IMG/VR virus record: IMGVR_UViG_3300032087_002756 | Coordinates: 1-27,430 of that record | DNA: 27,430 nucleotides | Origin: a virus | Direction: 5' to 3' (one strand) | Shown: one piece after another, positions 5,384 to 26,671 of the stretch | Numbering within the stretch: position 1 is the first letter of the stretch | How the letters are laid out: the number at the start of each line of letters is the position of its first letter | The notes under the pieces: generated by a model | The model's input: only the letters and a program-made list of their open reading frames with translations | Told to the model about the DNA's origin: nothing | Database searches by the model: none | Position numbers and translations under genes: made by a program

Positions 5384-6013
5384 ATGGAATTACTAAACCA
5401 AAAAAATAATTTTACACAAATAAACAACGATATTTCAATGGGTCGTGTAGCTGTTGTTGATGATTTTTTTACCGAAAATACAGCTGAAGAACTTAGAGAA
5501 AGAATGGTGTATGGTTGGGTATACGATAATTATTTCAAAGGTGGATATAAAGCTAAACATTATGACACTAGTGATTCTATAACAAATCAATTAGCAAAAG
5601 AGTTAAAAGAAAAATTACCTGTTTTAGCTGAGTTTCAAAGAGCGTGGTCTTTTATTTACAATAACAAGTCTAGTGGTGTAAACTTTCATGCCGATCCTTC
5701 AAATGTAAACTTAAACTGTTGGGTCACTCCTAACGAAAGTGTAAACAATTTTCTTTTAAATGGATTGTTAATATGCAATAAAAAACCACCAGAAAATTGG
5801 ACTAGAAAAGAGTGGAATCAAAACAAAGATGGTATAGTTGATAAGTTTATTGAAGAAAATGAAGTAGATATTGTTGATGTAAAATACAAATATAACAGAG
5901 CAATATTTTTTGATGGTGCTTGTTTTCATAAGACAAATAATGTTGATATGAAACTCGGACTAAATAATAGAAGAGTGAGTTATACTATGCTTTTTGGAAG
6001 AACATTGGAGTAA
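5384..6013 (+). CDS. Fe(II)/2-oxoglutarate-dependent oxygenase
   Basis: Probable non-heme iron oxygenase of 209 residues, expected to couple 2-oxoglutarate decarboxylation to hydroxylation of an unknown substrate in the cytoplasm. The facial triad is visible as His102-x-Asp104 in FHADPSNVNLNCWVTP and His182 in FFDGACFHKTNN, with the 2OG-binding Arg at 196 or 197 (NNRRVSYTM). The PSNVNLNCWVTPNE stretch is typical of double-stranded beta-helix proteins of this kind. The gene starts its own unit from a consensus sigma70 promoter and is followed after one base by uvsY. There is no Shine-Dalgarno before the ATG. Substrate cannot be predicted. Confidence 0.85.
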   Translation: MELLNQKNNFTQINNDISMGRVAVVDDFFTENTAEELRERMVYGWVYDNYFKGGYKAKHYDTSDSITNQLAKELKEKLPVLAEFQRAWSFIYNNKSSGVNFHADPSNVNLNCWVTPNESVNNFLLNGLLICNKKPPENWTRKEWNQNKDGIVDKFIEENEVDIVDVKYKYNRAIFFDGACFHKTNNVDMKLGLNNRRVSYTMLFGRTLE

Positions 6014-6014
6014 T

Positions 6015-6443
6015 ATGACATTAGAAGAACTACAAGATTTAGCAGATAAAGATTTAAAACTTAATGAAACTGAGTTAGATTTAGAAGCATTAAAGACCCC
6101 ACAATTACATAATAAGTATTGTAAGTTTCACTCTAAGTTTTCTAACCTTTTAAAGAAAGCAGAAAATGAAAGGGATAGAATTTTAAGAGAGAAGTGGGAA
6201 TATTATACAGGTAAGGCAGACCCTAGTGTCTATCAAGCAAAACCTTTTCATCTAAAAATTTTAAAACAAGATGTTGACAAATATCTTAAATCAGATGAAG
6301 ATGTTATTAAACACGAACAAAAGGTAACTTATATTCAAACCGTAGTTGATTATTTGGATAAAACTATTCGTATCATATCTAATAGGACTTTTCAAATAAA
6401 AAATGCTATAGAGTGGCGTAAGTTTACTAGTGGAGTAATTTAA
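6015..6443 (+). CDS. uvsY: Recombination mediator UvsY
   Basis: Loads the UvsX recombinase onto gp32-coated single-stranded DNA in T4 replication and repair. The 142-residue product fits the family (137 in T4). It begins MTLEELQ, as marine T4-like UvsY proteins do, has KWEYYTGKADP in the middle (T4 has a related YYSGRGD) and ends with RTFQIKNAIEWRKFTSGV, close to the cyanophage C-terminus. I chose the ATG at 6015, after GGAG at 6007-6010, over an in-frame TTG at 5994 that would overlap the upstream gene. The last base of its stop codon is the first base of the next ATG, so translation is likely coupled. uvsW lies 1.5 kb downstream with two oxygenase genes inserted between. Confidence 0.93.
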   Translation: MTLEELQDLADKDLKLNETELDLEALKTPQLHNKYCKFHSKFSNLLKKAENERDRILREKWEYYTGKADPSVYQAKPFHLKILKQDVDKYLKSDEDVIKHEQKVTYIQTVVDYLDKTIRIISNRTFQIKNAIEWRKFTSGVI

Positions 6444-7195
6444 TGATATTAAAACACAACTACTATGTTTTTCCTAAAGCAATTTCTAAAGAACAATGTC
6501 AAGGCATAATTAAACGTGGTTTAGACGTAATGAACTTAGACAAAGTTTCAGGTAAAAGTGTAGTTGCAACTACTTTTGGTAATAAAGAAAAAGGCGCTGA
6601 TAAATTAAATACAGCAATAGGTTCTTTAACACATCAAGGCGCTCATAAAAAAGGTGTTAATTTAAGCACAGCATATGTAAGAGATAGCTATACGTCATGG
6701 TTAAATGATAAGTGGATATATGATATAATACTACCTAAAATACATACAGCAAACAAAGACGCAGGTTGGAATTTCGATATAAAAGATAGTGAAATGTTCC
6801 AATTTACTGTATATAAACCTGGTGGTTTTTATGGTTGGCACACAGATGGTCGTTCAGATCATTTTGGTAGTTATAAAAAAGCAATACCAGGTATTAATAA
6901 GAAAAATAAATATGGTAAATTTCCAGAAGGCCTAACTGATAATGATTTTATGGTAGGTTTAAATAGAAAGATATCGGTTACTGTAAATTTAACAGATAAA
7001 AAGAATTATAAAGGTGGTGATTTGCGATTTGACTTTGGTGCTCATAGTGCTAAAAGGTATCACACAATTACTCAAGCAAGAGAACAAGGAAGTATTATAG
7101 TTTTTCCTAGTTTTTTACATCATCAGGTTACACCTGTCACAACTGGAACTAGATATTCTTTAGTATTGTGGACACTAGGACCCCCATTTAAATAA
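6443..7195 (+). CDS. PKHD-type 2OG-Fe(II) oxygenase
   Basis: Probable prolyl-4-hydroxylase-like oxygenase of 250 residues. The core is FTVYKPGGFYGWHTDGRSDHFG (about 121-142) with His133-x-Asp135, the KISVTVNLTD strand, the GGDLRF motif at 191-196, the distal His in FPSFLHHQVTPV (226 or 227) and Arg237 in GTRYSLVLW for the 2-oxoglutarate carboxylate. This arrangement is characteristic of the PiuC/PKHD hydroxylase group, whose members hydroxylate protein or small-molecule substrates. The start overlaps the uvsY stop (TAATG). Such oxygenases are common in cyanophage and pelagiphage genomes, but their targets are not established to my knowledge. Confidence 0.9.
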   Translation: MILKHNYYVFPKAISKEQCQGIIKRGLDVMNLDKVSGKSVVATTFGNKEKGADKLNTAIGSLTHQGAHKKGVNLSTAYVRDSYTSWLNDKWIYDIILPKIHTANKDAGWNFDIKDSEMFQFTVYKPGGFYGWHTDGRSDHFGSYKKAIPGINKKNKYGKFPEGLTDNDFMVGLNRKISVTVNLTDKKNYKGGDLRFDFGAHSAKRYHTITQAREQGSIIVFPSFLHHQVTPVTTGTRYSLVLWTLGPPFK

Positions 7196-7197
7196 TC

Positions 7198-7205
7198 CAT
7201 AAATA
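7198..7205 (+). promoter_or_regulatory. Late-type promoter giving a leaderless start at 7211
   Basis: CATAAATA, 7 of 8 to the T4 late octamer, begins 2 bases after the upstream stop codon and ends 5 bases before the ATG at 7211. It has the same sequence and spacing as the site at 4468, and the predicted +1 is the A of the ATG. Confidence 0.65.
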
Positions 7206-7210
7206 GTAAT

Positions 7211-8008
7211 ATGACAAATATAGAATTTTTTAATAAACATAATTATCTGTTAATAAAGGAATTTATTCCTAGATCACTAGCAGACTTTTTATATCATTAT
7301 GGTAAGACATATGTTCTTGCAACAGATGTTATGGTAAAAACAAAATATCATAGATACCATGAAGACGTATTTGGTGGTTTTGGCGATAGTCAAATACCAG
7401 GTACGTTTAAACGATATGGCGATCCTGTTATGGATTCTTTACTTACTTATTCATGGAAAAGTATGGAAGAAAATACAGGCATGAAACTTCAACCAACGTA
7501 CAGTTATTGGAGATTGTATAGAGAAAATGATGTTTTAGAAAGACACAAAGACAGACCAAGTTGCGAAATATCTACAACATTATGTTTAGGATATGATGTT
7601 TCAAATACAGACAAAGACTATAACTGGCCTATGTTTGTAGAAGAAACAGGTTCATATAAAGATTTACCAGGCAAACCTATTCACATGAAACCAGGCGATA
7701 TGATTATTTACAAAGGTTCTTTAATAGATCACTGGAGAGAAGCATTTAAAGGCAGAAATCACTGTCAAGTATTTTTACATTATAATGATTTAAATGGCCC
7801 ATATGGCAAATTAACAAAATACGATACACGACCTTATGTTGCTCTACCAGGTGATTTTAATAACCTTGAGAAAAGAAAAAAAATAAAAGAAATACATGAT
7901 AGTATTGTAGACCAAAGACTTAATAAAGAAGGATTAGATCCTGATAAGTATGGTCACAAAAAATTACCTGACACATATAATGAGCAAGATAAAAATAGAA
8001 AAACTTAA
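7211..8008 (+). CDS. 2OG-Fe(II) oxygenase-like protein
   Basis: This 265-residue protein belongs to a group common in marine T4-like phages. The region SYWRLYRENDVLERHKDRPSCEIS (about 98-121) supplies His112-x-Asp114. PGDMIIYKGSLIDHWRE (161-177) supplies the distal His174, and FKGRNHCQVFLHYND (179-193) closes the fold. The 2-oxoglutarate-binding basic residue is less clear than in its neighbours; Arg182 is the likely candidate. The C-terminal 60 residues are charged and probably separate. It has its own late-type promoter and no ribosome site. Its 3' end overlaps the start of uvsW by 29 bases. Substrate unknown. Confidence 0.8.
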   Translation: MTNIEFFNKHNYLLIKEFIPRSLADFLYHYGKTYVLATDVMVKTKYHRYHEDVFGGFGDSQIPGTFKRYGDPVMDSLLTYSWKSMEENTGMKLQPTYSYWRLYRENDVLERHKDRPSCEISTTLCLGYDVSNTDKDYNWPMFVEETGSYKDLPGKPIHMKPGDMIIYKGSLIDHWREAFKGRNHCQVFLHYNDLNGPYGKLTKYDTRPYVALPGDFNNLEKRKKIKEIHDSIVDQRLNKEGLDPDKYGHKKLPDTYNEQDKNRKT

Positions 8009-9980: not shown

Positions 9981-10011
9981 AAACCTCAATTTGTCAAGCA
10001 GTGAAAAGATT

Positions 10012-10668
10012 ATGTTATTTGGAAATACTTGTATTGATAATTTTTTAAATAATCCACAAAATGTAGTAGATGTGGCTAATTCGTGTACATATTCTAATGA
10101 TGGTGTATCACCTGGAAAAAGATCAGAACCTTTACATATAGTTAATTATGATTTATATAACTACATAAACGTAAAAATTTTATCTTCTTTATATCCAAAT
10201 GAGTCAGAAACAGTGCAATTTAAGTCACTTTCAGTCTTTCAAAAAATACCTGCAGGTATAGATTATGACGGTTGGATACACACGGACAAAAGATCAATAC
10301 TAACTGCTATTATATTTCTATCAAATTCAAATGCAGGTACATCAATATATGAACCTAAATCATCTTTTTTTATACCTGATAATACAGATAATATAAAACA
10401 AGATTATTTTAAGAATCCTAATAGTTTATCAAAAGAAAAAAAAGAAAAATATCATAAAATAAGAGAAAAGTGGGCAAGTAATTATGAAGAAACTATATCT
10501 TACAAAGGTAAATACAACAGAATGATTTGTTTTGATGGTTTTAACTATCATAATGCTCATGTACATAAAGGTACTGAAGACAGACTCACACTAATTACAT
10601 TTTTTGACGAAATAACCATAAAGGATAAAAACATAAAATATCCTTTACCAACCATTAGAGGGAGTTGA
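10012..10668 (+). CDS. Putative 2OG-Fe(II) oxygenase
   Basis: This 218-residue protein has an oxygenase-like core: FQKIPAGIDYDGWIHTDKRSILTAIIFLS (about 76-104) gives His90-x-Asp92, and FDGFNYHNAHVHKGTEDRLTLITFF (about 174-198) gives distal His180 and Arg191. A Lys/Glu-rich insertion (about 128-160) separates the two halves. I prefer the ATG at 10012 to an in-frame TTG at 9991; neither has a strong ribosome site, so the start is uncertain. A stem-loop precedes it, and its last codons overlap the -35 of the gene 55 promoter. The nearest relatives I can think of are short bacterial oxygenase-like proteins found near tryptophan halogenases, and halogenases lie 0.6 kb downstream, but I cannot confirm that link. 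Confidence 0.75.
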   Translation: MLFGNTCIDNFLNNPQNVVDVANSCTYSNDGVSPGKRSEPLHIVNYDLYNYINVKILSSLYPNESETVQFKSLSVFQKIPAGIDYDGWIHTDKRSILTAIIFLSNSNAGTSIYEPKSSFFIPDNTDNIKQDYFKNPNSLSKEKKEKYHKIREKWASNYEETISYKGKYNRMICFDGFNYHNAHVHKGTEDRLTLITFFDEITIKDKNIKYPLPTIRGS

Positions 10669-10693
10669 CAAAAAACATTGTTTATTGTATAAT
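10665..10693 (+). promoter_or_regulatory. Consensus sigma70 promoter of gene 55, leaderless
   Basis: TTGACA (10665-10670), a 17-base spacer and TATAAT (10688-10693) form a perfect sigma70 consensus. The expected +1 is 10700, the A of the gp55 ATG. The host polymerase would make the late sigma factor early from an mRNA without a leader. Confidence 0.85.
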
Positions 10694-10699
10694 AGAACT

Positions 10700-11251
10700 A
10701 TGGCAAGAACAAGAAAAAGAAGTGAACATTACGTTGACAATAAGAAATTTTTAGAGGCAATGACCGAGTTTAAAGATCGTTGCGACAAGGCAAAAAAAAG
10801 AGGAAGAAAAACACCACCAGTAACCGAGTATATAGGTGAATGTTTTTTAAAAATTGCAAATCATTTATCATATAGACCTAATTTTATTAATTACACATTT
10901 AGAGACGATATGATTTCAGATGGTATAGAAAACTGTTTACAATATCTAGGCAACTTTAATCCTAAAAAATCTAAAAATCCTTTTGCTTATTTTACACAAA
11001 TCATTTACTATGCTTTTATTAGAAGAATACAGAAAGAGAAAAAACAAGTTAACATTAAAGCAAAACTTATAGAAGATGGTGGTTTAGCAGAATTACATAT
11101 TGATCCAAATGATACAAACAAAGACTATAAAAATCAGTTTGTTGAATTTTTAAGAAAGAATAGTAAGCCTTCAGATGAAACACCTAAAAGTAAAGATATA
11201 AAAGTCAAAAAAAGAAAAAGAAGAACTTATACAAGCGTTTTAGACATTTAA
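10700..11251 (+). CDS. 55: Late transcription sigma factor gp55
   Basis: T4-type alternative sigma factor that binds host core RNA polymerase and recognises TATAAATA late promoters, several of which are visible in this window. The 183-residue product is close to T4 gp55 (185). The sigma region 2-like core is visible around 73-118: FRDDMISDGIENCLQYLGNF, then NPFAYFTQIIYYAFIRRIQKEK, the FAYFT..I...F..RI pattern that contacts core and melts the -10. The C-terminal tail is basic (KVKKRKRRTY) and may hold the clamp-binding hydrophobic end that T4 gp55 uses with gp45. The ATG at 10700 is preferred over an upstream TTG at 10685, which lies within the promoter. It is the first gene of a unit that continues with essentially no gaps to 21626. 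Confidence 0.95.
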   Translation: MARTRKRSEHYVDNKKFLEAMTEFKDRCDKAKKRGRKTPPVTEYIGECFLKIANHLSYRPNFINYTFRDDMISDGIENCLQYLGNFNPKKSKNPFAYFTQIIYYAFIRRIQKEKKQVNIKAKLIEDGGLAELHIDPNDTNKDYKNQFVEFLRKNSKPSDETPKSKDIKVKKRKRRTYTSVLDI

Positions 11252-11253
11252 TA

Positions 11254-12822
11254 ATGACAATAAAAAATATAGTAGTTGTTGGTGGTGGTACAGCAGGTTG
11301 GGCTGCAGCTTGTTATTTAAGAGATACAACTAACCCACAAATAAAGGTAACTGTAGTAGCTTCAAAAGAAATACCTATCATTGGTGTAGGTGAAAGTACA
11401 ACTGGTTTATTTAATGACTTTTTAAAACAAATTGGTTTACCAGAACAAGTCTTTATGAAAGAAACAGGTGCTACTCACAAAATAGGCATACAACATAGAG
11501 ATTGGTATAAAGTAGGAGAACATTTTAACTCACCTATTGGTGAGGCAAAGAGAGTAGCTAATACCTATCCTAGTGATGATTATGATTTTATAAAAATGTT
11601 TGCAATTGCAGAAAATATAAACGACTCTAGTTTACAAGCATTTTGTATGAAAAAAAATAAAGTTCCTTTTGTTCGTGCAGATCATCCTGAAAATAATCCT
11701 TATAAACAATTATTAGGATATGGAGGTTATAGAGACTTACGAGATAACAACACAGCACTACACCTAGACACATATAAAACAGGACAAATTTTAAAAAGAT
11801 TTTTTTTAGAAAAAAAAGTTAATACAGAATATGTTGAAGGTACTGTAGATAGTTTTGAAAAAAATGAAGATGGTACAATAAAGTGTGTAAAAGGAAAAAA
11901 CAATTTAAAAGTAGAAGGCGACTTGTTTGTAGATTGTTCAGGTTTTACAAGAATACTACTAAACTCATATGAAAATAAATTTATTGAATATGGTGATCAG
12001 TTATTAAATAACAGAGCCCTTGCATTTCATATACCTTATACAAGTAAAACAGCAATAAGAAGTTATACACACGCATGGGCTCAAAAGTATGGTTGGTTAT
12101 GGATGATACCTTTACAAGAAAGATATGGCGCTGGATATTGTTTTAATGATTCATTTACTACTGTTGATGAGGCAAAACTAGAAATAGAAAAAGTATTAAG
12201 AACAAAAATAGAAGTGCAAAAAGATATAAAATTTAAGTCTGGTAGATTTGAAAAGTTTTGGATTAAAAATGTTATATCAACAGGATTATCAAGTGCATTT
12301 ATAGAACCTTTAGAAGCAACATCTATTCACGCTACACTCTATCAATTAAAACATTGGATAAGATATTATTTTACTCAAACTCTAAATTTTAACAATGAAC
12401 ACCTACAAGATTCTTATAATGATGATATGACTAATATGTGGGATCAAATAAAAGATTTTATAGTGTATCATTATATTACACCAAGAAACGATACAGAATA
12501 TTGGAAAGAAGCTTCATCTCCTAAGAGATGGTCTAAAGAACTAAAACAAAAACTAGGAATGTGGAAAGATAGAACTCCTAGATTGCCTGATTTTGTTAGA
12601 GGAAATAGAAACGACTTTTATCATATAGATGATAATTTATGGTTAAATATAAGTCAAGGTATGCACATACTTGATAGAGATATGGTTAAAAGAGAACTAA
12701 TAGAATATAATCAATATGAATCTGCCAAAAGACAATTACAAAATGGCTTGAAATTTTTTGATTATGCGTCAACAAATTGCGTAGGAACAAACGAGTATTA
12801 TAAACATTATGTCGGTCAATAA
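11254..12822 (+). CDS. Flavin-dependent tryptophan halogenase-like protein 1
   Basis: FAD-dependent halogenase family, 522 residues. The usual reaction uses reduced FAD, O2 and halide to make hypohalous acid, which a lysine relays to an aromatic substrate. Visible features: GGGTAGWAA FAD site at 10-18, GVGESTTG at 44-51, the catalytic Lys76 in ATHKIGIQHRDW, the WxWxIP halogenase signature as WLWMIP (281-286) and the halide/FAD loop FIEPLEATSIH (349-359), in which Glu354 matches the catalytic Glu of PrnA/RebH while the adjacent Ser is Ala. No flavin reductase is visible nearby, so reduced FAD must come from elsewhere. The start follows the gp55 stop by 2 bases. Cyanophage Syn10 is known to encode an active halogenase of this type (VirX1). 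Substrate here is unknown and could be a peptide or small molecule. Confidence 0.93.
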   Translation: MTIKNIVVVGGGTAGWAAACYLRDTTNPQIKVTVVASKEIPIIGVGESTTGLFNDFLKQIGLPEQVFMKETGATHKIGIQHRDWYKVGEHFNSPIGEAKRVANTYPSDDYDFIKMFAIAENINDSSLQAFCMKKNKVPFVRADHPENNPYKQLLGYGGYRDLRDNNTALHLDTYKTGQILKRFFLEKKVNTEYVEGTVDSFEKNEDGTIKCVKGKNNLKVEGDLFVDCSGFTRILLNSYENKFIEYGDQLLNNRALAFHIPYTSKTAIRSYTHAWAQKYGWLWMIPLQERYGAGYCFNDSFTTVDEAKLEIEKVLRTKIEVQKDIKFKSGRFEKFWIKNVISTGLSSAFIEPLEATSIHATLYQLKHWIRYYFTQTLNFNNEHLQDSYNDDMTNMWDQIKDFIVYHYITPRNDTEYWKEASSPKRWSKELKQKLGMWKDRTPRLPDFVRGNRNDFYHIDDNLWLNISQGMHILDRDMVKRELIEYNQYESAKRQLQNGLKFFDYASTNCVGTNEYYKHYVGQ

Positions 12823-14254
12823 AATAACAGTATTAGGTGGTGGAACAGCAGGTCTTTTATCTGCCTTAATTTTAAAAAAACGATTTTCAAAACTTGATAT
12901 AGAAGTTGTTAAGTCAGATCAAATAGGAATTATAGGAGTTGGTGAAGGGTCTACTGAACACTGGAAAGAGTTTATGGACTTTATAGGAGTTCCTTTAAAA
13001 GAACTTTTATTAGAGACAGACGCCACTTTTAAATATGGTATAATGTTTGAAGATTGGACTAAAGAACCTTACTTTCACAATATAACAAATGAATTACAAA
13101 ATATTAGAATGGGCCAATATTATTCTGGTTATGCTTACGCAGTAGTAAATAGTTTAAAACCAGATGAATATACATCAGGTCATTGTTTCAATAAAGAAGT
13201 TTTACCTAATTATATGCCTCATCAATTTCATTTTAACACATTTAAGTTAAATCAGTTTTTATTAAAAGTATGTGAAAAATTTGAAATAAAGATTCATATA
13301 GATGAAATTACAGATGTTGAAACAAGTAATTATGGAATAAAAAGAATTAGAGGTGATAAAGGTTGGTATGAGTCAGATTTCTATATTGATAGTACAGGAT
13401 TTAAAAAATACTTAATATCTAAATTAGGCGCTAAATGGGTTTCATACAAAGACTATTTGCCAATGAATGAGGCGATAGCCTTTCCTACTCCCGACACGGA
13501 TGAATATACGCCATATACACTTGCAAAGGCAATGTCTTCAGGTTGGATGTGGCGTATACCGACATATGGTCGTTGGGGTAATGGTTATGTTTTTGATAAC
13601 AGATATATAAATGCTGAACAAGCACAAAAAGAATGTGAAGACTATTTAGGATTTAAAGTTAATGTTGCAAAGAATATTAAGTTTGACGCAGGTGCTTTAG
13701 ATAGACCATGGATAGGCAATTGTGTTGCAATGGGATTAAGTGCTAGTTTTATTGAACCACTAGAGGCGTCATCAATAGGAACTTCTATTCAACAATCGTT
13801 TTTACTAATGCACACTCTAATAAATTACAAACAAACAGATATAGATCAGTATAATCAAAAGGTAAAAGAAATAGTTGAAAACATAAGAGATTTTGTTTTA
13901 CTACATTACATGGTCGATAAAAAAGATAGTAGATTTTGGAAAGAGTTTAAACCTAATTTACCTGATACATTAAAACATAACTTAGAAAAATGGTCAGACA
14001 GATTACCTATTAACGAAGATTTTAAAAACAATTATACTTTATTTAATGCTCATAATTTTGCAGTGCTACTAAAAGAACTAAATTTAGTCAATAAAGAAAG
14101 TATAAAAAGAGAATATGAAATGATAGACCAAGGCACTAGAGGCTTAATTAAAAACTCAATTGCTAGTCACATAAAAACTTTTAAATATAATATTAAGGCA
14201 ATGAGTCATAAAAAATACTTAAACACACTGAGAAATGAAAATAGCAATACTTAA
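12809..14254 (+). CDS. Flavin-dependent tryptophan halogenase-like protein 2
   Basis: A second, diverged halogenase-family protein of 481 residues, starting 14 bases before the end of the first. It keeps every key element: GGGTAGLLSA FAD site (10-19), GVGEGSTEHW (43-52), Lys75 in ATFKYGIMFEDW, WMWRIP (246-251) as the WxWxIP signature, and FIEPLEASSIG (314-324) with Glu319 followed by Ala. The helical C-terminal region differs most from its neighbour, which is where substrate recognition usually lies, so the two enzymes probably act on different substrates or positions. The 14-base overlap on one side and 20-base overlap with gene 47 on the other show tight coupling to a DNA repair operon. Both copies look intact. 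Confidence 0.93.
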   Translation: MSVNKITVLGGGTAGLLSALILKKRFSKLDIEVVKSDQIGIIGVGEGSTEHWKEFMDFIGVPLKELLLETDATFKYGIMFEDWTKEPYFHNITNELQNIRMGQYYSGYAYAVVNSLKPDEYTSGHCFNKEVLPNYMPHQFHFNTFKLNQFLLKVCEKFEIKIHIDEITDVETSNYGIKRIRGDKGWYESDFYIDSTGFKKYLISKLGAKWVSYKDYLPMNEAIAFPTPDTDEYTPYTLAKAMSSGWMWRIPTYGRWGNGYVFDNRYINAEQAQKECEDYLGFKVNVAKNIKFDAGALDRPWIGNCVAMGLSASFIEPLEASSIGTSIQQSFLLMHTLINYKQTDIDQYNQKVKEIVENIRDFVLLHYMVDKKDSRFWKEFKPNLPDTLKHNLEKWSDRLPINEDFKNNYTLFNAHNFAVLLKELNLVNKESIKREYEMIDQGTRGLIKNSIASHIKTFKYNIKAMSHKKYLNTLRNENSNT

Positions 14255-15296
14255 TGATACACACTTTGGTGTAAGAAATGATAGTGAGGCATTTAGAAAC
14301 TATCAAGTTGATTTTTATAGAGATCAATTTTTTCCTTACTTAAAAGAACATAATATAAAAACTCTAATACATTTAGGTGATGTAGTTGATAGAAGAAAGT
14401 TTATCAATCATCAAACAGCTGCGATATTTAGAAGAGAGTTTTTTGATGTGTTGTGGAAAGAAAAAATAGATACTCACATCATCATAGGTAACCACGACAC
14501 TTATTTTAAAAATACAAATGAAGTTAACGCAGTAGAAAATTTATATACAAGTTTTGATGGTATTAATGAACCTTTTATTTACACTAGACCTAAAGTTGTA
14601 GAGTTTGATGGTTTACCTATTTTATTTTTACCTTGGATATGTGACGACAATAGAGAAGAGTCAAGTAATATGATTAGAACAGCAAATGCACCTATTGTGT
14701 TTGGTCATTTAGAAATAAAAGGAATAGAAATGCAAAATGGTGTTATTAATCAATACGGTAATGATAAATCAGAATTTAAAAGATTTGAAAAAGTTGTTTC
14801 AGGTCACTTTCACAAACACACAGACGATGGTCAGATATATTACTGTGGCGCTCAATACGAACAAACTTGGTCGGATTATAAAGACCAAAAAGGTTTTCAT
14901 ATTTTTGATACTGAAACAAGAGAGTTAGAACGTATTGTAAATCCAAGAACAATACACAAAAAGATAATATATGACGATTCTAAAAAAGATTATGAAACGC
15001 TAGATATTCAACAATATCACAAACACTTTATTAAATTAGTTGTATTAAATAAAACAAATGAAGATGTATTTGACAAATTCGTTGAAAGATTGTATAATGA
15101 TATAACAGTTTATGATTTAAATATTATAGAGGATTTTTCAGATATTAAAGCATCCGTTAAAGATGACGTAATAGAAATGGGAGAAGATACACTTACATTT
15201 TTAAACTCTTATGTAGATCAAATAGAAACAGATGTTAGTAAACAAAAATTAAAACAATATCTAAAATCCATTTACGTAGAGGCTAGTGAAGTATAA
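14235..15296 (+). CDS. 47: Recombination endonuclease subunit gp47 (SbcD/Mre11-like)
   Basis: Nuclease subunit of the gp46-gp47 complex, which resects DNA ends for recombination-dependent replication and helps degrade host DNA. The 353 residues (339 in T4) hold the calcineurin-like phosphoesterase motifs in order: NDTHFG (Asp8, His10), LGDVVDRR (Asp49), IGNHDTY (Asn86, His87), FGHLEIKG (His158) and VSGHFHKH (His191, His193), all metal ligands. The start at 14235 lies within the upstream halogenase gene. In T4, 47 and 46 are close together; here two oxygenase-like genes have been inserted between them. Confidence 0.95.
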   Translation: MKIAILNDTHFGVRNDSEAFRNYQVDFYRDQFFPYLKEHNIKTLIHLGDVVDRRKFINHQTAAIFRREFFDVLWKEKIDTHIIIGNHDTYFKNTNEVNAVENLYTSFDGINEPFIYTRPKVVEFDGLPILFLPWICDDNREESSNMIRTANAPIVFGHLEIKGIEMQNGVINQYGNDKSEFKRFEKVVSGHFHKHTDDGQIYYCGAQYEQTWSDYKDQKGFHIFDTETRELERIVNPRTIHKKIIYDDSKKDYETLDIQQYHKHFIKLVVLNKTNEDVFDKFVERLYNDITVYDLNIIEDFSDIKASVKDDVIEMGEDTLTFLNSYVDQIETDVSKQKLKQYLKSIYVEASEV

Positions 15297-15967
15297 TGAA
15301 ATATGACGTACACCCATTTGGACCTTTATTAGTATCTTTTGAAATGAAAGAGGAAACAACTGATTGGTTGTTAGAAGAAGCTAATAAGTTAAGAGGTAAT
15401 AAAGAAGCTTTAGCTAATTCTACTTTAGCAGGTCAATTAAAAGAGCAATATTACTTTGATAAAAAAATAAGAGACGAATTTTTTGTTAGAACAAATGAAG
15501 TATTTACTCAATATAGGAATATTCATTGTGAATTTCATAAATTACTACAAAAAAAAATAGAGTGGGGAGCAAGAGTATTATGGGTTAACTTTATGAAAAA
15601 ACATGAGGCAAATCCAATACACAATCATGGAGATGATTATTCTTTTGTTTATTTTTTAAATGATGTAGATTTAGAAGAAGAATATAAAAATCACGTAGCA
15701 AGATCAAACCTACCAGGCAACGTGGGGTTTTCTTTTGGTGAACCGTCAGCACCTGATAGAAAATGGACAACACAACAAAGATGGTTTCAACCTAAAAAGA
15801 ATTTACTTATTATGTTTCCTGCTTTACTTCAACATTACGTAATACCATATCATACAGATGTTGAAAGAATAAGCGTGTCTGGTAATATAAAGATTTTAAA
15901 TAAACACAAATTACAAGAAGACGAAAAGGGAGAAAAAGGTAATAGAGAGCACGAGTTTTATTTTTAA
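15296..15967 (+). CDS. 2OG-Fe(II) oxygenase-like protein between 47 and 46
   Basis: This 223-residue protein resembles the phage oxygenase group sometimes called putative 2OG-Fe(II) oxygenase. VLWVNFMKKHEANPIHNHGDDYSFVYFLND (about 94-123) supplies His111-x-Asp113 (His109 also nearby), and LLIMFPALLQHYVIPYHTDVERISVSGNI (about 170-198) supplies His180 and Arg191. The SFGEPSAPDRKW loop between them is variable in this group. Its ATG overlaps the gp47 stop (TAATG) and its stop overlaps the next ATG the same way, so three coding regions are chained. Substrate unknown. A role tied to recombination is suggested only by position. Confidence 0.8.
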   Translation: MKYDVHPFGPLLVSFEMKEETTDWLLEEANKLRGNKEALANSTLAGQLKEQYYFDKKIRDEFFVRTNEVFTQYRNIHCEFHKLLQKKIEWGARVLWVNFMKKHEANPIHNHGDDYSFVYFLNDVDLEEEYKNHVARSNLPGNVGFSFGEPSAPDRKWTTQQRWFQPKKNLLIMFPALLQHYVIPYHTDVERISVSGNIKILNKHKLQEDEKGEKGNREHEFYF

Positions 15968-16563
15968 TGTCTATGCACAGAAAAATTGAAAAAAACTTTT
16001 GGTGGCCTACGCCTTTGTGGCACGTAGTACTAAAAGAATTTAAAACACATCCTACAAGAGTAAATTATAATGATGATTTATTTTCCTATGGTATAGGTCT
16101 AAGAGAAAAAGGCAAAGGTGTTAGAAAATCAAATGTAGGTGGATGGCAAAGTGACTTACTAAACCCAAATGAAGAAGTTAAACCATTATGTGATGAAATA
16201 TTTGATGTCTTAAAAAATTTAGAATTAGGCATTAACAATATAGAAATACCTCAAATATGGATGAATATAAATCAAAGAGGTGATTGGAACATAATTCATC
16301 AACATGGATACTTTCACATATCAGGAATATATTACGTTAAGTATCCTAAAGATTCAGGTAAGATAGGATTTAAAGACCCTAGACCTGCAGCTATGGGTAA
16401 TAGTTTTTTTATAGAAAGATTTGATGGCAGCGAACTTAAAACAGTAGATACAGTGCAAGAAGGTTCATTGCTATTATGGCCTTCTTACTTAGAGCACTTT
16501 GTAGAACCTAGTAGATCAGATGAAGAAAGAATGTCAATAAGTTTTGATATAGTAATTAAATAA
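15967..16563 (+). CDS. TIGR02466-like putative 2OG-Fe(II) oxygenase
   Basis: This 198-residue protein matches the TIGR02466-type family as I remember it: FWWPTPLWHV near the start, NVGGWQSDLL (56-65), WNIIHQHGYFHISGIYYVKYP (107-127), FKDPRP (135-140) and SLLLWPSYLEHFVEPSRSDEERMSISFDI (167-195). The distal His177 and Arg188 are clear. The usual HxD pair is not: the first motif reads HQHGYFH, so the iron ligands would be His111/113 and possibly His117, or the protein binds metal differently. It is linked by TAATG junctions to genes on both sides, including gene 46. Whether it is an active oxygenase is less certain than for its neighbours. Confidence 0.78.
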   Translation: MSMHRKIEKNFWWPTPLWHVVLKEFKTHPTRVNYNDDLFSYGIGLREKGKGVRKSNVGGWQSDLLNPNEEVKPLCDEIFDVLKNLELGINNIEIPQIWMNINQRGDWNIIHQHGYFHISGIYYVKYPKDSGKIGFKDPRPAAMGNSFFIERFDGSELKTVDTVQEGSLLLWPSYLEHFVEPSRSDEERMSISFDIVIK

Positions 16564-18272
16564 TGATATACTTTAAAACAATAAGATGGAAGAATTTTTT
16601 ATCAACTGGTAATCAGTTTATAGAAGTAGATTTACAAAAGGCACCATCAACATTAATTGTAGGGGCAAACGGATCAGGTAAATCAACTTTACTTGACGCA
16701 TTGTGTTTTGTTTTATTTAATAGACCTTTTAGAGACATTAAAAAAGAACAACTTGTTAATACCATTAATCAAAATGATTGTGAAATACAAATAGAATTTA
16801 AAATTGGTAACAATGAATATAAAGTTGTAAGAGGAATCAAACCAAACATATTTGAAATTTATAAAAACAATGTATTAATAAACCAAGACGCTTCTGCTGT
16901 TGACTATCAAAACACATTAGAAAATAATATTTTAAAATGTAATTATCGTGCCTTTTGTCAAGTAGTTATTTTAGGTTCATCATCTTACGAACCATTTATG
17001 CACCTACGTGCTAGATATAGAAGAGAGGTTGTAGAAGAAATATTAGATATTAGAGTTTTTACTCATATGGATTTATTGTTAAGACAAAAACAAAGTGAGT
17101 TAGCAAAATCTGTACAAGATGTTAAGTTTAGATATAACTTAATGACAGAAAAATACGAAATGCAAAAGAAACATTTTGAAGAAGTTTTAAGTAGAGATAA
17201 TTCAGACCTAGAGGATAAAAGAAAACTAATTGCAGATAATCATAAAGATAATTTAGTTTACAAAGATAAATTAGAAAAACTTAATGAAGAGATTATATCA
17301 AAGAAACAAAAATTATGGCACAAAGATGAAGAAACAGGTAAACAAACTAAACTTGCAAAACTTGAAGCTAAAATAGAAACAAATATTGCAACACATAAAA
17401 AAACATTAGAATTTTTTGAAAAGAACAATAACTGTCCTACTTGCACACAAAAGATAGAAGAGGGATTTAAAGTACAAAAATGTCAACACGAAAAAAGTAA
17501 AATTGATAAACTTGAAAAAGGTCTACAAGACTTAGTAATAGAAATAGGTAAGAACAACCAAACAGTAAGTGATTTAAATAAACTTGCAGATAAACTAGGG
17601 CAACTAAATGTAGAGGTTGCAAAAATTAATACTTCTATTGATTCTATAAACAGACAATCAAATAGATTAAATGATGAGATTGCAAAATTAGAAGTAGAAA
17701 AAAAGAACTCAGATAAGGTTGCTTTTGAATTAGAAAATATTAAAAATGAATTAAAAGCAGTAGATGTAGAAAAAGATAAAGTTGTTGAAGAGAAAAAGTA
17801 TATTGATATTGCTAGAGAGATATTAAATGATACAGGTGTCAAAGCAAAGATTATAAAAAAGTACTTACCTATAATGAATCAACTAATCAATAAATACTTA
17901 CAATCTATGGACTTCTTTGTAAACTTTCATTTAGATGAAGAGTTTAACGAAACAATTAAAAGTAGATTTAGAGATACCTTTAATTACAATAGTTTTAGTG
18001 AAGGTGAGAAGTTAAGAATTGACCTTGCATTATTATTTACATGGAGAACTATTGCAAAAATGAAAAACAGTACTAACACCAACTTGTTAATTTTAGATGA
18101 GGTGTTTGACTCATCCTTGGATACTACAGGAACAGATGACTTTTTTAAAATACTCAAACAACTAACAACAGAAAATACTTTTATTATATCACACAAAGGA
18201 GATATAATGTTTGATAAATTTACTAATATTATAAAATTTGAAAAATACAAAAACTTTACGAGGTTACTATGA
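16563..18272 (+). CDS. 46: Recombination endonuclease ATPase subunit gp46 (SbcC/Rad50-like)
   Basis: ABC-type SMC-like ATPase partner of gp47. The 569 residues (560 in T4) show Walker A GANGSGKS (34-41), two long coiled-coil arms (about 170-285 and 300-415) joined by a zinc hook CPTC at 290-293, the ABC signature SFSEGEKLRIDLAL near 476-489, Walker B LLILDE near 507-512 with the D-loop SSLD, and the switch histidine in IISHKGD near 541-547. It completes the 47-46 pair. The start overlaps the upstream stop, and the stop overlaps the next gene by 4 bases (ATGA). Confidence 0.96.
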   Translation: MIYFKTIRWKNFLSTGNQFIEVDLQKAPSTLIVGANGSGKSTLLDALCFVLFNRPFRDIKKEQLVNTINQNDCEIQIEFKIGNNEYKVVRGIKPNIFEIYKNNVLINQDASAVDYQNTLENNILKCNYRAFCQVVILGSSSYEPFMHLRARYRREVVEEILDIRVFTHMDLLLRQKQSELAKSVQDVKFRYNLMTEKYEMQKKHFEEVLSRDNSDLEDKRKLIADNHKDNLVYKDKLEKLNEEIISKKQKLWHKDEETGKQTKLAKLEAKIETNIATHKKTLEFFEKNNNCPTCTQKIEEGFKVQKCQHEKSKIDKLEKGLQDLVIEIGKNNQTVSDLNKLADKLGQLNVEVAKINTSIDSINRQSNRLNDEIAKLEVEKKNSDKVAFELENIKNELKAVDVEKDKVVEEKKYIDIAREILNDTGVKAKIIKKYLPIMNQLINKYLQSMDFFVNFHLDEEFNETIKSRFRDTFNYNSFSEGEKLRIDLALLFTWRTIAKMKNSTNTNLLILDEVFDSSLDTTGTDDFFKILKQLTTENTFIISHKGDIMFDKFTNIIKFEKYKNFTRLL

Positions 18273-18826
18273 TATATGAATTAATACCACCTACTGATCC
18301 TAGAGTGCTATCATCAATCGCACCTTTTGATGAAAAGAAATTAAAAGAAGATGAAAAGATAACACCAAAAGAATTTGCAGACAATATGTTTGAGACTATG
18401 AAAAAATATGGTGGTATAGGTTTATCAGCAAATCAATGTGGTAAACCATATAGAATGTTTGTAATGGGCGATCATCCTAATATTAAAGAAGGCAAAAAAT
18501 GGGTATGTTATAATCCAGAAATAAAAGGTCACAGTAGAGAGACAATTAGATTTAAAGAAGGTTGTTTAACTTTTCCTTATTTGTTTTTAGATGTAGAGAG
18601 ACCTAGAGCAGTTGCAGTTGAATATTATGATGAAAATATGAAAAAGGTTGAAGAAAATTTAACAGGCATGCCTGCAAGAATTTTTCAACATGAATTTGAC
18701 CATATGCAAGGTATTGTGTTTACAGAGCACGTTAGTAAGTTTAAACTACAATTTGCAATGAAGAAAAGAGATAACATAGTTAAGAAAGTACAAAGACAAT
18801 GGCAACAGATAGCAAGTCAGAAATAA
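18269..18826 (+). CDS. def: Peptide deformylase
   Basis: Removes the formyl group from the N-terminal methionine of nascent proteins at the ribosome exit. The three family motifs are present: GIGLSANQ (49-56; motif 1, usually GIGLAANQ), EGCLTFP (97-103, with metal ligand Cys99) and QHEFDHMQG (140-148), the HExxH metal site with Glu142. Length is 185 residues, close to bacterial Def (about 170), and the C-terminal helix is retained, unlike the shortened form described in some cyanophages. The 4-base overlap with gene 46 implies translational coupling. Phage deformylases are thought to keep deformylation going during heavy late protein synthesis. Confidence 0.94.
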   Translation: MIYELIPPTDPRVLSSIAPFDEKKLKEDEKITPKEFADNMFETMKKYGGIGLSANQCGKPYRMFVMGDHPNIKEGKKWVCYNPEIKGHSRETIRFKEGCLTFPYLFLDVERPRAVAVEYYDENMKKVEENLTGMPARIFQHEFDHMQGIVFTEHVSKFKLQFAMKKRDNIVKKVQRQWQQIASQK

Positions 18827-19422
18827 AAACTAAAAGTATATTTGCTACACCTGCTAGGTTTAATGAAAACAAAGATTTAGCAACAAGATTATTAAATCCA
18901 TGTAAAGAACTATTAGCAAAGTGTGAAGATCATAATAGTTATCCTAATGGCAAAACTAGTTTTTTTGAAGAAGGTAAAAATATATTCAAGTTAGAACAAC
19001 AAGAGTTTATTGATTTTAGAGATTGGGTTGGAAAAGAATGTTTATCATATTTGTATGAATGTGGTGTAGATATTAATCAAATTAAAATTATTGCTTCTAA
19101 TGCTTGGGTGTCTGAAATGTATGAAGGTGGTTCACACCCACATCACACTCATCATCCTTATTGTCAAGTAAGTGGTAATTTTTATGTACACGCAGATGAA
19201 GAATCAAGCCCATTAACATTTTATAAACCAGGTGTTTTTGGTGATATTTGGCAAACTATGCCTATCAGACAAAAAAACATCCTAAATATAGATAAAGTAA
19301 ATTGTCCTGCAAGAACAGGTTTAAATGCAATATGGAGATCAGATTTAATTCATAGTGTATTTCATAATAAAAGTAAAAGTAGAATAGCAATAAGTTATAA
19401 CTTGGTGGTAACAAATGTATAA
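18799..19422 (+). CDS. TIGR02466-like putative 2OG-Fe(II) oxygenase
   Basis: This 207-residue protein has a second TIGR02466-like pattern: SIFATPARF near the start (13-21), NAWVSEMYEGGSHPHHTHHPYCQVSGNFYVH (about 101-131) and NAIWRSDLIHSVFHNKSKSRIAISYNLVV (176-204). Distal His185 and Arg195 are clear. The metal-binding first motif is a His cluster, HPHHTHHP (113-120), with no Asp in the usual HxD position, like the protein at 15967. The start lies 28 bases inside def. No ribosome site stands out, so coupled reinitiation is likely. Confidence 0.75.
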   Translation: MATDSKSEIKTKSIFATPARFNENKDLATRLLNPCKELLAKCEDHNSYPNGKTSFFEEGKNIFKLEQQEFIDFRDWVGKECLSYLYECGVDINQIKIIASNAWVSEMYEGGSHPHHTHHPYCQVSGNFYVHADEESSPLTFYKPGVFGDIWQTMPIRQKNILNIDKVNCPARTGLNAIWRSDLIHSVFHNKSKSRIAISYNLVVTNV

Positions 19423-20026
19423 AGAGCTAACAGTAAAACAACTAGACTTACCTGAATATAAACAGGATTTAACCGAGGCAGTTTCATTTTTAAATAACAT
19501 TAATAAGTATTCTGCCGTAAAAACAAAATATAACAAAAAAGAACAATGGCAAGCTATATCAATTAGAGGATATAGTGATGAAGTTGAAGATATTTTAAAA
19601 CCAGGAGTTTTAAAAAGTGAAGGTACAGATAAAGGATTAAGATGGACTTCACTATACGAACAATCTGAATTATTACCTATTAAAGAAATACTATCTCATA
19701 TACCTGCTGAATTTGAAAGAGTAAGAGTTATGAGACTAAAAGCAGGTACTAAAATATCTAAACATACAGATAAGGTAGATAAAAGTATCAAAGAAGGAAA
19801 ATTAGTAAGATTACACGTGCCTTTAAAGACAGGTCCTAATGTAAGTATGACAATATGGAAAAGTAAAAACGCATATTTACATAACTTAGAAACAGGTAAA
19901 TATTACTATGTAGATGTGTCTAAGCCGCACGCTGTTGACAATTCTGAAGAATTTGATAGACTACACTTAGTTATAGATTGTTATATGAATCCAAGGTTAA
20001 ATGATGTTATTAGCGCAAAAGTCTGA
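19415..20026 (+). CDS. Aspartyl/asparaginyl beta-hydroxylase-like oxygenase
   Basis: This 203-residue protein fits the aspartyl/asparaginyl beta-hydroxylase group of 2OG oxygenases (PF05118 type). VRVMRLKAGTKISKHTDK (about 103-120) gives His117-x-Asp119; LVRLHVPLKTGPNVSMTIWKS (130-150) is the conserved RxHvPl strand that binds the cosubstrate; LETGKYYYVDVSKPHAVDNSEEFDRLHLVID (158-188) gives distal His172 and Arg182. In cellular proteins this fold hydroxylates Asp or Asn side chains. It overlaps its upstream and downstream neighbours by 8 and 26 bases. It belongs to a different oxygenase subfamily from the others here, so the set is not a simple recent duplication. Confidence 0.85.
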   Translation: MYKELTVKQLDLPEYKQDLTEAVSFLNNINKYSAVKTKYNKKEQWQAISIRGYSDEVEDILKPGVLKSEGTDKGLRWTSLYEQSELLPIKEILSHIPAEFERVRVMRLKAGTKISKHTDKVDKSIKEGKLVRLHVPLKTGPNVSMTIWKSKNAYLHNLETGKYYYVDVSKPHAVDNSEEFDRLHLVIDCYMNPRLNDVISAKV

Positions 20027-20438
20027 TTTTGAAAAAGTAAAGTCTATTTTCTATAAACATAAGAAATGGTTTCCTCATGTAAGAACTGATTACATGAAAC
20101 GTATGATAGCCAAAGAACAAATGGTTTATGAGGATTGCGTAATAATAACCTTTCATCATTGTAAAAGACAACAGAAAATAGGTGATGTAAATTTAAGAAA
20201 AGGCGATACAGTTTTACATCAAATCGCAAGTGAATATCCAGGTGACGGAAATGCACGTAATATAATGAAAGAATTTTTTGAATGGTGTCCTAGAGACGTA
20301 TATTTGTCAGTAAGAACAGACAACTTGACAGCCTGTAAATTTTATGATAGCATAGGAATGAAAAAAGTCGGGATAACAAGTTGGTCAAAAGGTACACTCC
20401 CTGGTTTAGTTTATGTCAAACGCAAAAGAAGTAGTTAG
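20001..20438 (+). CDS. GNAT-like acetyltransferase
   Basis: This 145-residue protein resembles a GCN5-related N-acetyltransferase. The C-terminal half reads DVYLSVRTDNLTACKFYDSIGMKKVG (about 94-119), the usual strand 5-helix 4 pattern of N-x-x-A-x-x-F-Y-x-x-x-G-F/M near the acetyl-CoA pantetheine. A turn at PGDGNARNIMKEFF (75-88) sits where the phosphate-binding loop is expected (Q/RxxGxG/A). It starts 26 bases inside the upstream gene, with two adjacent ATGs (20001 and 20004). Target unknown: a protein amino group, a small molecule or a modified base are all possible. Confidence 0.75.
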   Translation: MMLLAQKSDFEKVKSIFYKHKKWFPHVRTDYMKRMIAKEQMVYEDCVIITFHHCKRQQKIGDVNLRKGDTVLHQIASEYPGDGNARNIMKEFFEWCPRDVYLSVRTDNLTACKFYDSIGMKKVGITSWSKGTLPGLVYVKRKRSS

Positions 20439-25291: not shown

Positions 25292-26671
25292 ATGAAAGCA
25301 ATAACTAAAACAATAAGTGTAAAAAATTTTACTGATTTAAATATAGATAAAAAGATATTTTTAGATGAGTCTTTTCAAAGAGGTACCGATGAAAAATCTA
25401 GTTGGGAAGATAGTCATAAAAAAGATTTTATAGATTCAACTCTATTAGGTTCTGCTGTAAACCCAATAGTACTAGTAGATATTAAAGCAGCACTAGATTA
25501 TAATTTACAAACAAAATCTAGTCCTGACTCAGTTATATATTTTCAAAGTTTATTAGATAAAGGTTTTGAATATTTAAGTATTGATGGTAACAATAGATCA
25601 ATCACTTATAAAGATTTTAGAAACGACTTATTTAAGGCATTACACAAATCATATTTGTATGATAGAGGTAGTTCAGAAATCAAAAAAGATTTTGATAAGT
25701 ACTCAACTATGCCAAGTGTATTACAAGAAAAATATAATGATACACAAATTGATTTAAAAGTATTTACAGAAATTACATCTGCTGAATGTAGAGACGTATT
25801 CAGAAACTTAAACAAAGGTGTGCCATTGAATCATCAACAATATAGACAATCTTATCCTAGTGATTTTGCACAATACGTTAGAGATAATAGAAGAAAGTAT
25901 ATGGTACCGTTATCTAATTTTTTAGGTAATAAAGAAATACAAGAATTAAAAGGTGATGAATATATTGCTAAGATGGCTTGTTATGCTTTCAAAGGTGAGT
26001 ATTCAAAAGTATTATTAGATAAAATATATTTTGATAATACAACTAGAGGTGATCTATGTACATATTTAAGATTGTTTAAATCAGATAGTAATTTTAATTC
26101 TGTATTAAAACAAGTTATGGCAAACTTTGAAACAGGTACTCAACACTTGCAACCAAATGCTGTGTTTGATTACTTTGTGACAGTTTGGAATTACAAATTA
26201 AATAATATTAAAGTAGAAAAACCTGATGAGTATTATAAGTTATGGTTAAAACAATATGTAAAAGAAAAAACAGATATAGATACTACACATCCTATACCTG
26301 GTGAAAATTCAGAATATATTTTTGATGATACTATCAGAAAAATACCTGAACATTTTAGAACATGGAGATTAGAATACTTACTTGCAAAAATAGAAACAGA
26401 GGCATATGCTTCTGGTTTGATAATTCAACAAGAGGATCCTGATAAGTACTTTACAAAAAATCAAAAGTTTATAATGTGGGAGAGACAAAAAGGTATATGT
26501 CCTGCAACACAAAAGACTATACCTTTTGAAGAAGTTTTAGATTATACTAAATGGCACGGTGACGCTATACTACCTAAAGATAAAGGTGGTAAACATACAT
26601 TAGATAATGGTAGATTGATATGTGCTGAGTATAATATAAAAAAATCTAATAGAATTGAGGGGGTAATATAA
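25292..26671 (+). CDS. DUF262 (GmrSD-like) protein with degenerate HNH end
   Basis: This 459-residue protein has an N-terminal ParB/Srx-like DUF262 pattern: DESFQRG (25-31) with the QR pair, a W-x-x-S-H-K-K-D-F-I-D-S-T segment, DGNNR (97-101) matching the nucleotide-binding DGQQR motif, and FRNLNKGVPLNHQQYRQS (about 170-187). The C-terminal 60 residues look like an HNH nuclease: CPATQKTI, WHGDAILPKDKGG, LDNGRLIC and YNIKKSN. Two positions are unusual. The expected DH is DA, and the zinc cysteine pairs are reduced to one each. DUF262-nuclease fusions are typical of GmrSD-type modification-dependent restriction, but phages also carry them. It has a GAGG ribosome site before the ATG. Confidence 0.8.
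   Translation: MKAITKTISVKNFTDLNIDKKIFLDESFQRGTDEKSSWEDSHKKDFIDSTLLGSAVNPIVLVDIKAALDYNLQTKSSPDSVIYFQSLLDKGFEYLSIDGNNRSITYKDFRNDLFKALHKSYLYDRGSSEIKKDFDKYSTMPSVLQEKYNDTQIDLKVFTEITSAECRDVFRNLNKGVPLNHQQYRQSYPSDFAQYVRDNRRKYMVPLSNFLGNKEIQELKGDEYIAKMACYAFKGEYSKVLLDKIYFDNTTRGDLCTYLRLFKSDSNFNSVLKQVMANFETGTQHLQPNAVFDYFVTVWNYKLNNIKVEKPDEYYKLWLKQYVKEKTDIDTTHPIPGENSEYIFDDTIRKIPEHFRTWRLEYLLAKIETEAYASGLIIQQEDPDKYFTKNQKFIMWERQKGICPATQKTIPFEEVLDYTKWHGDAILPKDKGGKHTLDNGRLICAEYNIKKSNRIEGVI

Follow-up and report, generated by a model that had tools for sequence, protein, structure and literature searches.

A 27,430-nucleotide (27.4-kb) piece of the genome of an uncultured T4-like virus (IMG/VR record IMGVR_UViG_3300032087_002756; hereafter the window, meaning this whole stretch of DNA) carries two overlapping open reading frames (ORFs), halA and halB, which are both intact and together exactly fill positions 11,254 to 14,254. 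The reading that we favor, and regard as probable, is that each encodes a catalytically competent flavin-dependent halogenase (FDH), that the two stem from separate viral lineages and were brought in independently as cargo at the junction between gp55 and gp47, and that the enzymes act on probably differing targets other than free tryptophan in an oxidative tailoring process shared with 2-oxoglutarate/Fe(II)-dependent (2OG-Fe(II)) oxygenases.

Two intact halogenase genes and their viral lineages

The ORFs themselves, profile scores and motifs all confirm the proposal, made in a first-pass annotation from the sequence alone, that two FDH genes stand here in tandem. HalA and HalB match PF04820 with 335 bits (E 9.5e-100) and 307 bits (E 3.8e-91), respectively, against a curated cut-off of 21, and both match phrog_2928 ('tryptophan halogenase'). 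Each protein keeps the GGGTAG motif (GxGxxG) for flavin adenine dinucleotide (FAD), GVGE, the catalytic lysine (Lys76 in HalA and Lys75 in HalB), GW.W.IP (WxWxIP), and EPLE. The AlphaFold2 models (predicted local distance difference test scores of 88.3 for HalA and 93.5 for HalB) have the fold of the FDHs PyrH, Thal and RebH: the best Foldseek match in the PDB is PyrH in both cases (2wes, E 1.1e-40, for HalA; 2wet, E 8.6e-39, for HalB), with template modeling scores, normalized to the query, of 0.81-0.84. When compared with L010, the closest relative with both genes, halA has a ratio of nonsynonymous to synonymous substitution rates (dN/dS) of 0.14 and halB one of 0.18, while other genes in the block give 0.06-0.21. 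Purifying selection acts on both halogenase genes. Because motifs, fold matches and dN/dS agree, HalA and HalB are likely active enzymes, as had been supposed from their motifs.

The two proteins are 28.8% identical over 472 columns. Their divergence had been placed mostly toward the C-terminus, which is indeed diverged (13%), but the identities in successive 65-residue blocks of HalA (41, 23, 15, 29, 38, 37, 31, and 13%) locate it in the substrate-side insert (residues 66-195) as well.

The idea that the pair is a tandem duplicate that diverged in place did not survive phylogenetic analysis. A 149-row tree places halA within a viral clade of 14 rows and halB within one of 56 rows that includes P-SSM2 and S-H38, both with support of 100; VirX1 and its tandem partner form a third clade (support 100) apart from these two. 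A second tree, computed with a mixture model, agrees; across both trees the halA clade has 14-18 rows and the halB clade 29-56, with support of 100. Recent tandem duplication is ruled out, as halA and halB are not each other's nearest relatives in either tree, and their placement in separate, well-supported clades points to a pair assembled from two lineages. Bacterial relatives of halA (Hyphomicrobiales and Rhodobacterales; L186:3610-7995 and L202:3608-6518) adjoin genes for GH4 glycosidases and oligopeptide-type ABC importers; these two loci gave no usable clue to a substrate.

Contrary to the first-pass annotation, viral halogenases are not rare. Two tblastn searches of a 50,697-record phage collection found 70 and 65 halogenase records, profile scans of IMG/VR each yielded at least 580 confirmed stretches, a 2010 tabulation of cyanomyoviruses already listed genomes with two prnA copies (PMC3037559), and the phage halogenase (prnA) is present in 20 of 153 cyanophages (PMC10452541). 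Overlapping tandem pairs are present in P-TIM40 and in Syn10, from which VirX1 comes, and the first 185 loci included 40 tandem-pair entries, some of which repeat a single contig. Both tandem halogenase pairs and the FDH family in phages are already known.

Three known phage systems are the closest points of comparison. VirX1 (PDB 6QGM), which we equated with CPUG_00131 by protein length, is likewise a phage PF04820 FDH, forms an overlapping tandem pair with CPUG_00132 and lacks the Trp1 and Trp4 motifs discussed below; it has been reported to be a trimer with a measured preference for iodide (PMC8407142). Its identity to HalA is 24.8% and to HalB 22.6%, however, it has EPLESTG where these have EPLEATS and EPLEASS, and its gene lies elsewhere than the gp55-gp47 junction. 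The cyanophage 'PrnA' proteins of P-SSM2 and S-H38 belong to the halB clade and, with that of S-SCSM2R, all show ~40% identity across 86-95% of the protein, but their genes are single, occupy other genomic places in phages of cyanobacterial hosts, and received the tryptophan name without a test. The halogenase gene of HTVC008M, a related T4-like phage, also stands beside a 2OG-type gene; it differs in lying next to the terminase genes, with the gp55-gp47 junction empty, and in falling outside clades A and B.

Oxygenase genes around the halogenases

Two 2OG-type families, OG0 and OG1, are the commonest neighbors of FDHs in 95 distinct viral FDH loci (Table 1), and several additional recurrent neighbor families are 2OG oxygenases too. 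In the window, OG0 and OG1 lie between uvsY and uvsW, the FDHs follow after a few more genes, and most of the nearest relatives of halB adjoin both. (PHROG labels OG1 a ferrochelatase, phrog_2954, a label that looks wrong given the invariant residues listed in Table 1.) Among 55 distinct B-type loci, a 2OG gene was in view in 46 and was the immediate neighbor in 33, and the FDH stood between OG0 and OG1 in 12. At T4-like gp47 loci, the density of 2OG-like genes was 0.15/kb with an FDH and 0.03/kb without one. This association supports a putative tailoring role in its general form. One part of the tailoring cassette that had been proposed holds up, namely the link with oxygenases, which recurs among viral contigs, whereas the GNAT and methyltransferase genes lie ~6 kb downstream. 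No core biosynthetic enzyme of a natural-product cluster (polyketide synthase, non-ribosomal peptide synthetase, or ribosomally synthesized and post-translationally modified peptide type) is found among the 29 annotated ORFs of the window.

The same neighborhood could reflect a modular oxidative-modification cassette, in which OG0 and OG1 are fixed and frame a single exchangeable enzyme, in most cases another 2OG oxygenase and sometimes an FDH; the target of the FDHs, HalB included, would then be an aromatic side chain in a protein of the phage or the host, for instance the small W- and P-rich protein described below, and the gp55-gp47 junction would be a second docking site of the same gene pool. 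A reverse scan from OG1 found OG0 in 73 of 80 loci and an FDH in 7, with the middle place taken mostly by other 2OG genes; the oxygenase pair is therefore constant and the FDH one of several exchangeable partners. The same count rules out the FDH as a fixed partner of OG0 and OG1. At T4-like gp47 loci the OG0-FDH link is weak (OG0 in view at 1 of 16 loci with an FDH versus 4 of 63 without), and overall we consider this reading rather unlikely.

A protein of 139 aa whose C-terminus is rich in W and P (family c7, L138:1184-1600) often directly precedes OG0 in OG0-X-OG1 cassettes; it has no Pfam match, and it is possible that it is a substrate or a structural protein. Two IMG/VR contigs of 51 kb (L060) and 77 kb (L061) have at least five FDH matches each and also carry OG0, OG1 and numerous 2OG oxygenases. 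Within the window, at least six genes match 2OG-Fe(II)/hydroxylase profiles or show HxD...H (within 5384-8008, 15296-16563, and 18799-20026), and two further genes appear similar by eye (5384-6013 and the DUF6445 gene at 9991-10668). Genes for a peptide deformylase (18269-18826) and a weakly matching RimI-like acetyltransferase (20001-20438) near the hydroxylases suggest a possible protein-modification theme.

Table 1. Features of the halogenase locus and its oxygenase neighbors, in window coordinates
Feature	Position	Strand	Evidence and remarks
OG0, PKHD/P4H-type 2OG-Fe(II) oxygenase	6443..7195	+	PF13640, 51.5 bits; family in 41/95 distinct viral FDH loci
OG1, 2OG-Fe(II) oxygenase-like	7211..8008	+	H112xD114, H174, R176 invariant; family in 41/95 distinct viral FDH loci
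gp55, late sigma factor, left border of slot	10685..11251	+	phrog_234, E 6.3e-63
halA, FDH, viral clade A, 522 aa	11254..12822	+	PF04820, motifs, AlphaFold2, Foldseek, dN/dS
Overlap of halA end and halB start, 14 nt	12809..12822	+	Identical offset in relative L010
halB, FDH, viral clade B with P-SSM2 and S-H38 'PrnA', 481 aa	12809..14254	+	PF04820, motifs, AlphaFold2, Foldseek, dN/dS
gp47, SbcD-like nuclease subunit, right border of slot	14235..15296	+	phrog_100, E 1.2e-96
2OG-Fe(II) oxygenase between gp47 and gp46	15296..15967	+	PF13759
Second 2OG-Fe(II) oxygenase between gp47 and gp46	15967..16563	+	PF13759
2OG-Fe(II) oxygenase	18799..19422	+	PF13759, TIGR02466
Asp/Asn/Arg hydroxylase-like 2OG oxygenase	19415..20026	+	PF05118

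Catalytic residues, substrate motifs and reduced flavin

Five residues never vary among 239 aligned viral FDH ORFs (Lys76, Glu47, Trp281, Glu351, and Pro352 in HalA numbering), and WxWxIP is largely retained. These data bear on the proposal that HalA and HalB are flavin monooxygenases or hypohalite releasers of FDH fold, supplying for example oxidants against competitors or superinfecting phages. Such enzymes might be expected from the ATS/ASS variants of the halide loop and from pocket residues unlike those of the tryptophan halogenase references, but the invariance of Lys76 and Glu351 and the retention of WxWxIP are as in true FDHs, and VirX1, although of another clade, is an active halogenase (PMC8407142). 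We judge this proposal unlikely.

Four motifs, Trp1 to Trp4, contact tryptophan, and enzymes without Trp4 have been reported not to interact with it (PMC8269204). We looked for these motifs in a joint alignment of HalA and HalB with PrnA-, Thal- and PyrH-type references, in which the references L205, L208, L203, L210, and L220 display them. In this alignment, Trp1 (AT[IV]P or ATFS) is absent from both proteins, which have STTG (HalA) and GSTEHW (HalB) instead; Trp2 (HxFG/HPFE) is not kept (SPIGE in HalA and HNITN in HalB); and Trp4 (YYxxF..EF.NFW or (Y/H)YHG(L/F)) is absent from both. The replacing residues are conserved by clade, with STTG and SP[IL]G in most of clade A and [GAS][ST]TEHW in most of clade B, which suggests that each viral clade may have its own, differing pocket. 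In one scan, the strict Trp1 pattern, the single motif used for this count, occurred in 0 of 224 distinct viral FDHs versus 17 of 118 bacterial FDHs. PyrH, Thal, RebH, and PrnA, at ~23-29% identity, resemble HalA and HalB in fold, FAD site, lysine, WxWxIP and EPLE and differ from them in Trp1 and Trp4. BrvH-like group C FDHs, reported to be inactive on tryptophan (PMC8269204), resemble the two proteins in lacking the Trp4 motif.

Because the published tryptophan-binding motifs are missing from both proteins, free tryptophan appears an unlikely substrate of either. This conflicts with the expectation that one or both are true L-tryptophan halogenases like PrnA, whose halo-tryptophan would enter a metabolite or poison translation in the host. 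Several points favor it: PF04820 and phrog_2928 bear the tryptophan halogenase name, tryptophan halogenases are the best sequence and fold matches of both proteins, and the role has been assumed in cyanophage papers (PMC2984593, PMC9964418). The motif results above and the lack of pyrrolnitrin or other pathway genes near halA and halB nevertheless make it, in our view, distinctly improbable. The first-pass annotation had offered two substrates or a heterodimer to explain the pair; the clade-specific residues at Trp1, Trp2 and Trp4 make two substrates plausible, while the obligate heterodimer runs against the slot contents described below.

The source of reduced flavin was approached through PF01613. 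As the first-pass annotation had noted, no flavin reductase was apparent in the window, and a search of the window with this family was negative; a reductase elsewhere, which it had suggested looking for, was sought with the same family in 12 FDH-carrying records in all (the window and 11 others, with six isolate phage genomes), and none was found, while PF01613 was present in 13 of 14 control genomes. Reduced flavin is therefore probably supplied by a host flavin reductase, which is the simplest reading.

The gp55-gp47 junction and the proposed role

The setting had been described as a DNA repair operon, and 'recombination/repair and late-sigma block' is accurate: gp55, gp47 and gp46 flank the pair and uvsY and uvsW lie upstream, with gp21, gp22, and gp23 completing the T4-like core genes found in the window by profile searches. 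Only 2 nt separate the end of gp55 from the start of halA, and gp47 overlaps halB by 20 nt. The major capsid protein is nearest to that of Pelagibacter phage Mosig EXVC030M (79.7%), followed by Methylophilales phage Melnitz and Pelagibacter phage HTVC008M, and gp46 ranks these relatives in the same order, with Mosig first; judged by these relatives, the host is probably SAR11 or a similar marine oligotroph.

The slot is empty in Mosig, HTVC008M and Melnitz, where little or nothing separates gp55 from gp47. When loci were sampled by gp47 alone, one or two FDHs occupied the junction in 14 of 74 (10 of 49 distinct gp47 sequences), and other inserts of at least 600 bp were seen in only 4 of the 74. 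Over 82 rows, a set that mixes gp47-sampled and FDH-sampled loci, the slot held nothing in 60, B in 9, A in 8, A+B in 3, B with a VirX1-type gene in 1, and a VirX1-type gene with A in 1; L010-L012 have A+B, as does the window, and L013 and L014 have A only. At least 14 changes of slot content are required on the gp47 tree, in which several forks are weak. A single origin of the slot B genes, a group picked after an earlier tree had been seen, was rejected (delta log-likelihood 90, approximately unbiased test p 9.7e-5), and the nearest relatives of halB, L010 excepted, are located outside the slot. By these comparisons the junction is a recurrent halogenase insertion site. Other cargo recognized there by eye comprises an isoaspartyl methyltransferase-like protein (L291:3614-4222) and an HNH endonuclease-like protein (L344:4934-5635).

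The slot contents also bear on whether HalA and HalB form an obligate heterodimer, or whether one is a regulatory pseudo-enzyme. The 14-nt overlap of the two genes, at which they might be translationally coupled, recurs in L010, and overlapping FDH pairs exist in many other viral contigs. Yet A stands alone in the slot in L013, L035, L036, L037, L039, L041, and L042, B stands alone in L145, L146, L150, L162, L175, L317, L319, L320, and L325, and other pairings involve VirX1-type genes (with B or with A); A-only and B-only slots in related phages disfavor any obligate two-gene unit. Moreover, every catalytic residue is retained in both proteins, and the oligomeric states known for FDHs are the monomer, the homodimer and, in VirX1, the trimer (PMC8407142), so that we give this arrangement very little weight. 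Least credible of all is that the genes are neutral, hitch-hiking cargo without a role in infection, as their patchy presence (slot empty in 60 of 82 rows) might suggest, given dN/dS of 0.14-0.28, repeated independent acquisition at one site, and intact catalytic sites.

Three further observations concern the window at large. The late-promoter motif ATAAATA occurs 10 times, versus 22 expected by chance, and never directly before halA or halB. An Rfam search found no RNA families. A 459-aa protein (25292-26671) has an HNH endonuclease motif at its C-terminus and an N-terminal region similar to phrog_2598.

Several points weigh against two active halogenases engaged in oxidative tailoring. Enzyme activity, host flavin supply, the halide and the target are steps that we infer rather than observe, and the same is true of host identity. 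The halide loop following EPLE is ATS in HalA and ASS in HalB, as in most viral FDHs, versus STG in PrnA. PF01613 is one reductase family, and the phages could have a flavin reductase of another type or an unannotated one. Finally, FDH-free phages also carry OG0 and OG1, and the link with 2OG oxygenases may stem more from shared cargo hot spots than from shared chemistry.

Two competent halogenases of separate origin nevertheless remain the explanation that we prefer. According to this model, halA and halB would have been acquired independently as cargo at the gp55-gp47 junction of a pelagic T4-like phage. Each enzyme would use host-made FADH2, O2 and sea-water halide to generate hypohalite, which would be handed to the active-site lysine (K76 in HalA and K75 in HalB) and would halogenate an electron-rich target that is aromatic or indole-like but not free tryptophan, with the targets of the two enzymes probably differing. 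Together with the 2OG-Fe(II) oxygenases, the enzymes would most likely carry out the oxidative tailoring of some component of the phage or its host in the course of infection.

As far as the literature searched extends, four aspects are new: the two-lineage origin of the pair, the recurrent gp55-gp47 site with its changing content, the failure of the tryptophan motifs, and the interchange of FDH and 2OG genes within a fixed oxygenase pair. Phage halogenases are common in the sea, and a natural substrate has been reported for none in that literature. The locus described here shows that a single phage can combine two unrelated FDH lineages at an insertion site that has been used repeatedly. The tryptophan-binding motifs lend no support to the customary name 'tryptophan halogenase', and the FDH-carrying phages tested are without a recognizable flavin reductase of the usual family (PF01613). 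Together, the oxygenase neighborhood and the motif and reductase results narrow the search for substrates and point to the cultured phages HTVC008M and Syn9/Syn10.

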